Origin: Synergistes jonesii
Lineage (GTDB): Bacteria > Synergistota > Synergistia > Synergistales > Synergistaceae
Assembly (NCBI RefSeq): GCF_000712295.1
Contig: NZ_JMKI01000010.1
Span: 1 to 38,891, forward strand
Direction of reading: 5' to 3'
DNA: 38,891 bases
Of this stretch, positions 3,875 through 38,891 are shown one piece after another (the stretch's first letter is position 1; each line of letters starts with the position of its first letter). The translations under genes and the position numbers were made by a program. The notes below the pieces were generated by a model, which had not been told where the DNA came from, searched no databases, and saw only the letters and a program-made list of their open reading frames with translations.

Positions 3875-4987
3875 CTACAGCCCGAATATCAATTTGACCG
3901 CGAAGCCGGTGAGAAGCCCGTAGAAGGGATTCCAGCGCGCCGACGCGATGACCGTGATGCCTATCACCATTCCCCACGGAGAGAAGCCAAAGGGGCCCTG
4001 CGCCGCCGGCGCAAGAGCGATGGCGGCCTGGACGTTGGAGATGAAGGTCACGAATACGCCGAGCACGAAGAGGAAGCCGGCGATAGCCGAGCTGTGGACG
4101 TAGCGTCCCACGACCGGCAGCAGCTTGAGCAGCAGGATCGCGGCCATTATGAGCATCATCAAAACGGAGCTCGCGATAGGATGCGGAGCGGACGCCGTGC
4201 CGGAGATTATCGCCTCTACGGGGCCGCCGCCTAAGAACGAGGAGCCCATGTCGGCGAGCGAAGAGTAGATCGCGAGGTGGTCGATGTTGGCGTCAGCGTT
4301 GGCGATGCTGCCGGTTATTTTCCCGAAGCTGATGTTGGCTCCGATGTTGAGGCAGGAGAGCGCGAGGGCGCTGGCGAGCATCTTGTGGTTCCGCCATATC
4401 TTCCATTCGATGTTGCCGAAGGTGAACCTTTCGCGGCGCTCGTCGACTATCAGGTTCTGCGCTGCGACCTTGCCGGATTTTTTCAAAATGTTGTAGACGA
4501 CGGTGGCGGCCGCGACCGAGATGATTATCGTCTTAGCGAGGTCGAAGGTCGCGAACCATGCCGCAAGGGCGACGACCATGGAGACGCCGCCGGAAAATTT
4601 TTCAGATTCCATCATATCTATCGAGACGAGCGCGAGCATGATGCCGACGCCGGCCATCATCGAGGTGACGATGACGGGCCCGATTATCTCGACTATTTTT
4701 TCGTTAAGGCCGAGTATCGACGGAACCAGCAGGAAGAGCGCGCCCCAGAAGACTATTGACAGGCGTTCGCGGACGTTTCTGCCGAGCTTTCCCGCCACCG
4801 CTATCGTTTCCGCCTGAAACGATATAGTCGCCACCGAGCTGAAGGCGAGGGAACCCGCCGCGCCTATCAGAAACGCTACCGCGGTCGGGAAGGCGGCGAA
4901 GCCCAGAGATAGCGCGAGGAGCCCCTGCGGCGCTCCGTTCAGCACGACGGCGAGCGCCGTCAGCAAGTCAGTTAAATACGCTTCCAT
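3875..4987 (-). CDS. NCS2/AzgA-like purine permease
   Basis: A 370-residue, highly hydrophobic protein with about 11-12 membrane spans. The block ADMGSSFLGGGPVEAIISGT and the preceding hydrophobic spans with small-residue half-helices resemble the nucleobase-cation symporter-2 fold of guanine/hypoxanthine permeases. It is somewhat shorter than typical members (about 430 residues). Its position directly upstream of a purine phosphoribosyltransferase (12-base gap) supports purine base import. The ATG at 4987 has a weak upstream GGGGGC motif as ribosome binding site. Alternative: another membrane family of unknown substrate whose only link to purines is the neighbour. Confidence 0.7.
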   Translation of the reverse strand: MEAYLTDLLTALAVVLNGAPQGLLALSLGFAAFPTAVAFLIGAAGSLAFSSVATISFQAETIAVAGKLGRNVRERLSIVFWGALFLLVPSILGLNEKIVEIIGPVIVTSMMAGVGIMLALVSIDMMESEKFSGGVSMVVALAAWFATFDLAKTIIISVAAATVVYNILKKSGKVAAQNLIVDERRERFTFGNIEWKIWRNHKMLASALALSCLNIGANISFGKITGSIANADANIDHLAIYSSLADMGSSFLGGGPVEAIISGTASAPHPIASSVLMMLIMAAILLLKLLPVVGRYVHSSAIAGFLFVLGVFVTFISNVQAAIALAPAAQGPFGFSPWGMVIGITVIASARWNPFYGLLTGFAVKLIFGL

Positions 4988-34483: not shown

Positions 34484-35635
34484 ATGAAATCTGTACAAAT
34501 CGGCGGAGGCCTGGTAGGAAATATCATCGCGGAAGACATGAGCAGAGACTTTGACGTCACCGTCGTTGATTTAGACGAAAAAACGTTGGAGAAAATAAAG
34601 GCGAAGAACGGCGCGGTGAAGACGGCCGTCTGCTCTTGCACCGACGCCGAAAAGCTCGCCGGCATTCTCAAAGAAGCGGACATCGTCACCGCCGGCGTCC
34701 CCGGACGTTTGGGACGCCAGATGATGGAAGCCGTTATAAAGGCGGGAAAGAGTCTCTGCGACATCTCCTTCATGCCAGAGGACTTTGAAGAGCTCGACGG
34801 ACTGGCCAAAAAGCATAATGTGACGGTAGTGCCCGACATCGGCGTCGCACCAGGCATGTCCAATTTCCTCGTAGGCCGCGGCGCCGCGCTGCTCGACGAA
34901 GTAGAGAAGGCGGTCATATACGTGGGCGGCATTCCTGAAAAGAAAATCCCTCCCTTCAACTACCAGATCACTTGGTCCGCCTCCGACGTGATCGAGGAAT
35001 ATACCAGGCCCGCCCGCTATATCAAGGACTTTGAGCCGGTCGTCATAGAGGCCATGGGGGATTTGAATCTCGAGGAATTCCCCAAGGTCGGGACGCTTGA
35101 GACCTTCATCACCGACGGACTGCGCTCTCTCGTGAAAAACGTCAGGGCCAGAAATATGCAGGAGCGCACCATGAGGTGGCCGGGGCATGTGGAACAGATG
35201 CGTCTGCTGCGCGCTATGGGGCTCTTTGACGAGGAGAAGAGAGTGCTCGGAGGAAACGCGGTATCTCCGCGGGACGTCGCCTGCGACCTCCTCTTCCCCA
35301 TGTGGAAGATGGACCCGAAGGCCGGCGACCGCGATCTGACGATCATGCGCGTCGTCGTCGAAGGCTACAAGGGGCGCGACTACGTTAAGTTCACGTGGGA
35401 TCTATACGACAGATTCGACGAGAAAACGTGGAACAATTCAATGGGGCGCTGCACCGGGCTCACCTGCTCGATATTCGCGCACGCCGTCGCCTCCGGCCTG
35501 ATAAAGGAAAAGGGCGTGATCGCGCCTGAAAAGCTGGCGGCCTCGGACGAACTCTATGACTTTGTGATCTCCGAACAGAAAAAGCGCGGCATAGATTATA
35601 TCGAAAGCGTAAGCGCTGTGAAAAACGTGCGGTAG
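34484..35635 (+). CDS. Saccharopine dehydrogenase-like / L-lysine 6-dehydrogenase-like enzyme B
   Basis: A 383-residue paralogue of the preceding gene product with the same order of blocks: SVQIGGGLVGNIIAEDMS (nucleotide binding), VPDIGVAPGMSNFLVGRG, VIYVGGIPEKKIPPFNYQI, GHVEQMRLLRAMGLF and the tail. The PDIGVAPGM and YVGGIP wording is closer to the known lysine 6-dehydrogenase than copy A. The pair probably arose by tandem duplication and has diverged well, which suggests two substrates or a hetero-oligomer. An AGGAGG site lies before the ATG; the operon ends here. Confidence 0.86.
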   Translation: MKSVQIGGGLVGNIIAEDMSRDFDVTVVDLDEKTLEKIKAKNGAVKTAVCSCTDAEKLAGILKEADIVTAGVPGRLGRQMMEAVIKAGKSLCDISFMPEDFEELDGLAKKHNVTVVPDIGVAPGMSNFLVGRGAALLDEVEKAVIYVGGIPEKKIPPFNYQITWSASDVIEEYTRPARYIKDFEPVVIEAMGDLNLEEFPKVGTLETFITDGLRSLVKNVRARNMQERTMRWPGHVEQMRLLRAMGLFDEEKRVLGGNAVSPRDVACDLLFPMWKMDPKAGDRDLTIMRVVVEGYKGRDYVKFTWDLYDRFDEKTWNNSMGRCTGLTCSIFAHAVASGLIKEKGVIAPEKLAASDELYDFVISEQKKRGIDYIESVSAVKNVR

Positions 35636-35697
35636 CGCCGCCCGTCCATACGAAAAAACCGCCGCGTGCGGCTCGCGTAGAAAACCCCTAAAGCTGG

Positions 35698-35784
35698 GCC
35701 CGGAGCTGCAAAGGTCCGGGCTCTGCTTTATCAGGAACTTTTTTTGAGGCTGTCGACATTTGCTCAGTGCGACAGCCTTTTTTG
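35698..35784 (+). terminator. Terminator region after the lysine-dehydrogenase-like genes
   Basis: Two hairpins. The first (GCCCGGA 35698-35704 with TCCGGGC 35715-35721) lacks a T run. The second, GGCTGTCG (35748-35755) with CGACAGCC (35770-35777), is followed by six T and is a proper intrinsic terminator. Confidence 0.85.
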
Positions 35785-35895
35785 CGCGTGATAAATTTAG
35801 CCCCCGCCTTTGAGGAAGGCAAAGGGTTGTTTTGTTGTTGAATGACTAGTACCGCCGCGTAGCTTCCGTGAGTTTTTGCTGCACAATTTCATGCT
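35785..35895. other. Gene-free spacer
   Basis: No frame supported. A small hairpin CCTTTG (35807-35812) with CAAAGG (35820-35825) is present. Confidence 0.5.
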
Positions 35896-35956
35896 TTTCA
35901 AAATTATTTCATATGATATATAATATTGTCCCATAATCGCTCGGCTTATGAAGCCG
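35896..35956 (+). promoter_or_regulatory. Promoter and leader hairpin of the CAGT-repeat micro-ORF transcript
   Basis: TTTCAA (35896-35901), 17 bases, TATAAT (35919-35924). A six-pair hairpin CGGCTT-ATG-AAGCCG (35942-35956) follows near the start of the RNA. Confidence 0.5.
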
Positions 35957-35978
35957 GTCTGAGAAGAGGAGCAGGAAA

Positions 35979-36050
35979 ATGTTTAAAAAGCCCTTGACAA
36001 GAAGACAGGAATGCCCGACGCTCAGTCAGTCAGTCAGTCGTAGCTTGTAA
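35979..36050 (+). CDS. Micro-ORF (23 codons) carrying a CAGT tandem repeat
   Basis: ATG 35979 follows AGGAGCAGGAAA and opens MFKKPLTRRQECPTLSQSVS, stopping at TAA 36048-36050. The codons from Leu15 to Ser20 are the tetranucleotide repeat. The stop lies 17 bases before a very strong terminator hairpin. Removing one repeat unit would bring the ribosome into a frame that is open through that hairpin to TAA at 36139-36141; adding one unit gives an immediate TAG. I know no such peptide; that it is translated at all rests on the binding site and the position. Confidence 0.5.
   Translation: MFKKPLTRRQECPTLSQSVSRSL
36022..36039 (+). repeat. Tetranucleotide tandem repeat (CAGT)4
   Basis: Four exact CAGT units (36023-36038) plus partial units at both sides. 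Such repeats change copy number by slippage; four units is short, so the rate would be modest. Confidence 0.9.
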
Positions 36051-36067
36051 GTCCTCATTGCTAATCG

Positions 36068-36111
36068 AGCGGCCACCTGTGTGCGCAGTGTACACAGATG
36101 GCCGCTTTTTT
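36068..36111 (+). terminator. Strong intrinsic terminator behind the micro-ORF
   Basis: AGCGGCCA (36068-36075) with TGGCCGCT (36099-36106), one mismatch, then CTGTGT (36077-36082) with ACACAG (36092-36097); six T end the structure. Confidence 0.88.
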
Positions 36112-36422
36112 GTTGGAGCCAATGTGGAGATGCCTCCGTAAGGCCTCGCGCATATTTTTCGCATATGCGACCGTACGGCGGCCGCACGCCTGCTGGCTGC
36201 AGAAGGCGCGAAGCGTAAAGCGGCGACATATGAAGAACAAAAGCTTAGGTGAATATACCGACGCCCTACTGGTGTTAAAAAATCTTTGCGCGCACGGGCG
36301 TTAAATTGAAGCGGGCGTTTGCCTGCGCTGCAACGAGGGAGCGGCGGCCGATCGCTTCCCTCTGACCAAAGTATTTTAGATAGAAAATTTATGTACGTTA
36401 ATTTTGTAGGAAGGTGATACCG
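36112..36422. other. Gene-free stretch before the adhesin gene
   Basis: No convincing gene. A hairpin GAGGGAGCG (36335-36343) with CGCTTCCCTC (36353-36362, one bulged T) sits about 60 bases before the adhesin start. I see no clear sigma-70 promoter for the adhesin in this stretch. Confidence 0.5.

Positions 36423-38891
<2,469 letters not shown>

Follow-up and report, generated by a model that had tools for sequence, protein, structure and literature searches.

A CAGT-repeat leader resembling a phase-variable transcription attenuator precedes an adhesin gene in Synergistes jonesii

The sequence in front of a YadA-type trimeric autotransporter adhesin gene in Synergistes jonesii probably serves as a phase-variable transcription attenuator driven by a leader reading frame, to judge from its layout and from comparison with related loci. 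It lies in the 38,891-nucleotide stretch analysed here (contig NZ_JMKI01000010.1, positions 1 to 38,891; the window). A first-pass annotation had proposed a device of this type, and the comparative evidence supports it: the element occurs in five copies in this genome with varied repeat numbers and frames, it recurs in other phyla, and a proven counterpart exists in Streptococcus gallolyticus. The adhesin gene (36423-38891, + strand) carries PF05658, PF05662 and PF01391 domains with collagen-like repeats and is cut by the contig end. Within it, the collagen-like GXX repeats at 37523-38050 form tandem arrays of 9, 54 and 99 nt that likely vary in length themselves.

We infer that RNA would begin at a predicted promoter near 35895-35924 and that ribosomes would initiate at the ATG at 35979 and translate through a CAGT repeat. 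With four units, they would halt at 36048, before a hairpin, so that the terminator could form and little RNA would reach the adhesin gene (OFF). Slippage to three units, or to any multiple of three in this leader, would set the only frame that is open into the hairpin. Ribosomes moving into the hairpin would keep it open and RNA polymerase could continue into the adhesin gene (ON), the remaining two of the three frames being OFF.

The leader, its terminator and its promoters

The leader micro-ORF (35979-36050, + strand) has 23 codons, begins at the ATG at 35979 and encodes MFKKPLTRRQECPTLSQSVSRSL followed by a stop. It is preceded by a Shine-Dalgarno (SD) sequence, AGGAG (35967-35971, + strand), 7 nt 5' of the ATG, and contains a (CAGT)4 tandem repeat (36023-36038, + strand) for which shuffling predicts 0.00 occurrences in the window. 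The repeat has no stop in any of the three frames, and its unit length of 4 is not divisible by 3, as in a pil1-type leader. The present four units lead to TAA at 36048-36050 (+ strand, OFF), 17 nt before the terminator, and five units lead to TAG at 36041-36043 (+ strand, OFF). With three units the frame stays open through the hairpin to TAA at 36139-36141 (+ strand, ON), beyond the terminator. Repeat number can thus place the leader stop on either side of the hairpin. All coordinates that the first-pass annotation gave for the micro-ORF, its repeat and its stop hold, and recomputing the frames with one unit removed or added returned exactly the stops it had described. The window copy is currently in the OFF frame and, having four units, probably slips or switches rarely.

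The leader peptide itself is unlikely to matter, because the substitutions between the window copy and one of its paralogs (C35, below) have no third-position bias by eye. Codon-level conservation is absent, which counts against the attenuator, and selection on the peptide sequence was rejected.

A predicted intrinsic terminator (36067-36111, + strand) separates the leader ORF from its target gene, again as in pil1. It consists of a 17-bp hairpin with one mismatch (36067-36107) that runs into T6 (36106-36111), and its folding energy of -30.2 kcal/mol (z = -5.8 against dinucleotide shuffles) agrees with the strong terminator originally claimed. The helix is present in all five genome copies, with 96.7% of cells paired. 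Only three pairs are changed on both sides among the five copies, so covariation is weak and was set aside as support. Pairing of CGCTCG in the 5' leader with CGAGCG at the hairpin base occurs in the window copy and in C48, is lost in the other copies and was dropped.

The arrangement of stops is not used as proof because the stop distribution alone is close to chance, a further point against the attenuator. Between 38 and 61% of linker shuffles give the same layout of two OFF frames and one ON frame, and 4-8% do so with both OFF stops at least 14 nt clear of the hairpin. Conservation of the layout across the five copies has a P of about 0.4, and at least one ON and at least one OFF frame are found in 14/15 loci where 11.4 +/- 1.6 are expected. 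Recurrence of the whole element in the genome is a different matter: chance does not give it.

Two candidate start sites compete. The predicted outer sigma70-type promoter (35895-35924, + strand) upstream of the leader ORF reads TTTTCA-N18-TATAAT, or TTCAAA as the -35 element, with TATAAT at 35919-35924. It has a p_shuffle of 0.02 and is also found in copies C48 and C35. The second candidate is a conserved promoter-like motif, TTGACA-N17-GACGCT (35994-36022, + strand), which lies within the micro-ORF and ends at the repeat. According to the first-pass annotation, a promoter downstream of 36112 that supplies all adhesin transcripts would speak against an attenuator; at the sensitivity used, no sigma70-like site was found on the + strand from 36112 to 36423, the interval that separates terminator and adhesin gene. 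The upstream gene ends at 35635. Behind it, by eye, stand two hairpins in tandem that resemble terminators (about 35690-35735 and 35752-35786); a promoter belonging to the leader itself would thus be required. The first of these hairpins gives a weak Thr_leader match and looks like only a terminator. Cis-regulatory RNAs of Rfam (riboswitches, amino-acid leaders) have no match at gathering score in the window, with sub-threshold matches near the leader, and such an identity was rejected.

Five copies in one genome

A search of the same genome with the leader identified five copies, with 4 (C10, the window copy), 15 (C48), 18 (C35), 7 (C5) and 2 (C31) CAGT units. They share a tail, CAGTC(A/G)TA(A/G)CT...AAGC.GCGGC-hairpin-TTTTTT. 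In every copy one frame meets its stop directly behind the repeat. A second frame closes four codons later in 4/5, and the third opens into the hairpin. Both closed frames are clear of the hairpin in 4/5 copies, and in the window leader the gap from the OFF stops to the hairpin is 17-24 nt. Starting at the SD-ATG, both C48 and C35 read in the ON frame: C48 has a 92-codon product with its stop 99 nt past the T run, and C35 a 74-codon product with its stop 33 nt past it. These two copies are the better places to look for switching.

The other two copies are less regular. C5 meets an early TGA from the SD-ATG that breaks the frame before the repeat, and an ATG just 5' of the repeat would be needed; C31 has two units, an altered linker and has lost one closed frame. 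Both may be altered or decayed, and this share of two in five counts against the attenuator.

C10 and C48 are 97.6% identical over the 164 nt up to the repeat, yet have 4 and 15 units. Alignment of C48 (G000:C48:9381-9643) with window positions 35878-36118 gives the same identity before the repeat and 82% after it, which suggests that halves of the two leaders recombined at the CAGT repeat. A search for orthologous leaders in two close relatives (G001, G002) gave no DNA match.

The targets differ. C48 precedes a YadA-type adhesin gene like that of the window. C31 precedes a sugar transferase (PF02397). The gene behind C5 has no Pfam match and codes for a putative lipoprotein, judged from its N-terminus; C35 lies ahead of a molybdoenzyme operon, at the gene for its FAD subunit.

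CAGT leaders in other genomes and competing readings

A scan of 84,980 species, each represented by one genome, for TTGACA with CAGT repeats behind it recovered 37 stretches, mostly from metagenome-assembled genomes of Oscillospiraceae/Ruminococcaceae, Erysipelotrichaceae and Lachnospiraceae. Several genomes carry two to four loci each. The device is nevertheless sparse, since 2/250 genomes of one family (searched with one repeat phase) and 2/188 genomes of the window's phylum are positive. The typical layout elsewhere is GAAAGG(A/G)G, ATG, (CAGT)n, 35-60 nt and a strong terminator, followed by a gene. In 19/23 loci, against 3.3 +/- 1.6 in shuffles, an SD-ATG begins a frame that remains open into the repeat; the comparison overstates independence because the loci are partly homologous.

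Repeat number varies between copies and between genomes, with one genome sampled per species. Locus L036 (10 units, OFF) and locus L071 (14 units, ON) have flanks that are 100% and 94% identical, and further near-identical pairs differ in the same way (L052 with 12 units and L067 with 6; L039 with 15 and L050 with 10).

The strongest competitor, in our judgement an unlikely one, is that the inner motif is itself the promoter. RNA would then start within the CAGT units, the ATG would be untranscribed, and the number of units would tune how strongly the promoter fires, or where a short terminated RNA begins, and not a reading frame. In several families nearly every leader does have the motif TTGACA-N17/18-nAnnAT 25-30 nt ahead of the repeat, whether that position is within the coding sequence or 5' of the ATG, and a conserved element of this kind adjoining the repeat weighs against the attenuator. 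TTGACA was a condition of the scan; the -10-like part recurs although the scan did not ask for it. A locus recovered without the TTGACA condition (L083) keeps TTGACG..GATAAT, and the motif survives in C5 despite the broken SD-ATG frame. Against this, the -10 element is poor in the S. jonesii genome (GACGCT or GATGCT), and loci with an SD-ATG open into the repeat are far more frequent than in shuffles. Locus L063 keeps the SD-ATG at a different position relative to the motif. Many loci have a good outer promoter some 45-95 nt 5' of the repeat, and a promoter role leaves the near-constant terminator after the repeat unexplained. The motif may act as a second promoter, or it may take part in an RNA pairing, with TGTCAA downstream in some loci as the partner.

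A frame-independent role of the transcribed repeat as a 5'-UTR length or RNA-structure element, acting on mRNA stability or spacing, is improbable. The wide range of repeat numbers (2-18 in this genome and up to 23 elsewhere) would fit it, but the conserved SD-ATG, the stop-free repeat strand and the adjoining terminator would have no role. That the leader is a stand-alone short RNA gene, or an inert repeat with a constitutive terminator, unconnected to the adhesin, is the least probable reading: the copies do precede unlike genes, one of them the molybdoenzyme operon, but 17 of the 19 downstream genes read elsewhere encode, in sense orientation, proteins with a signal-peptide-like N-terminus, as expected of exported proteins, and in a genome of the same family a coding gene begins with a matching leader and repeat.

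That genome is Synergistales bacterium PG1894_167 (G023, locus L069). A similar leader with ten units (L069 positions 4513-4620; G023:C22:20491-20564) opens a gene whose product is, by eye, a membrane or secreted AlgX-like protein, and the locus looks like a coding version of the switch with the same repeat.

Several loci have features of their own. In L041, L044, L053, L058 and L070 the bases that follow the repeat (e.g. CTGTCAAGTCCTTTC) complement the SD and the TTGACAG before the ATG, and could hide the leader's ribosome site. L070 (240-1400) has its CAGT leader ahead of what appears by eye to be a dTDP-rhamnose-type operon, and surface glycans may therefore be switched as well as exported proteins. 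Viral contigs carry no copy of the leader, and their CAGT repeats are mostly in other contexts; in two of them (L106, L107), with no terminator seen, a coding frame starts with an SD-TTGACATG and a CAGT repeat, possibly a phase-variable phage gene. Long CAGT repeats also occur within what is by eye a reverse-transcriptase-like coding frame of a Candidatus Saccharibacteria genome (L038, L055).

Relation to known switches and significance

The kind of mechanism that we favour, attenuation set by the frame of the leader, is already known from S. gallolyticus pil1 and pil3. The number of GCAGA repeats in the pil1 leader ORF sets whether translation ends ahead of a terminator hairpin or else within or after it; the data for pil3 match (Danne et al. 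2014, PMC3894217). The authors concluded that ribosomes occupying the hairpin increase transcription, and mutation of the leader ATG or ribosome-binding site lowers expression (PMC3894217). Both systems have a leader ORF with its own SD that holds a tandem repeat with a unit that is not a multiple of 3, an intrinsic terminator between leader and surface-protein gene, and a repeat number that places the leader stop. We claim this likeness for the mechanism only, which in S. jonesii is predicted from sequence.

The two differ in their details. The unit is CAGT (4 nt) in S. jonesii and GCAGA (5 nt) in S. gallolyticus, the target is a YadA-type adhesin in Synergistota rather than a sortase pilus, and one frame in three is ON instead of two. 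The OFF stops lie 17-24 nt from the hairpin, compared with 39-49 bp in the S. gallolyticus reference strain, and the shorter distance, 17 nt in the window copy, is a point against the attenuator. Five loci in one genome and the promoter-like motif before the repeat likewise set S. jonesii apart from pil1/pil3.

Slippage of a tetranucleotide also shifts the frame in classical coding repeats, for example in Haemophilus type III methyltransferase genes. Here the shifted frame would be that of an upstream micro-ORF, the target frame is untouched and the output would be transcriptional readthrough. Neisseria nadA offers another parallel: this gene for a trimeric autotransporter adhesin has an upstream repeat tract that affects its expression, as we propose for the adhesin gene of the window. 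In nadA the repeat alters how far apart the repressor-binding sites near the promoter lie (PMC2791445), whereas here it sits in a leader ORF before a terminator.

In the open-licence literature searched, frame-switching leader attenuators are described for only two pilus loci of one streptococcal species. No report was found there of membership in Synergistota, a tetranucleotide unit, one-in-three ON logic or multi-locus use, which is weak evidence of absence, and a 2025 review of phase variation does not mention S. gallolyticus or leader peptides. Because the switch leaves protein-coding frames intact, scans for simple sequence repeats limited to coding genes would miss such leaders; the SD-ATG-repeat-terminator layout can be screened for in genomes. 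As a tentative extension, CAGT leaders could be widespread multi-locus phase-variable attenuators of gut and rumen bacteria in at least two phyla (Synergistota and Bacillota), several per genome, which independently randomise exported proteins and in which the repeat-abutting promoter-like element is functionally involved. The five loci in a Synergistales genome, together with the repeated cases in rumen Oscillospiraceae, suggest a general route by which commensals may randomise their surface proteins through readthrough.
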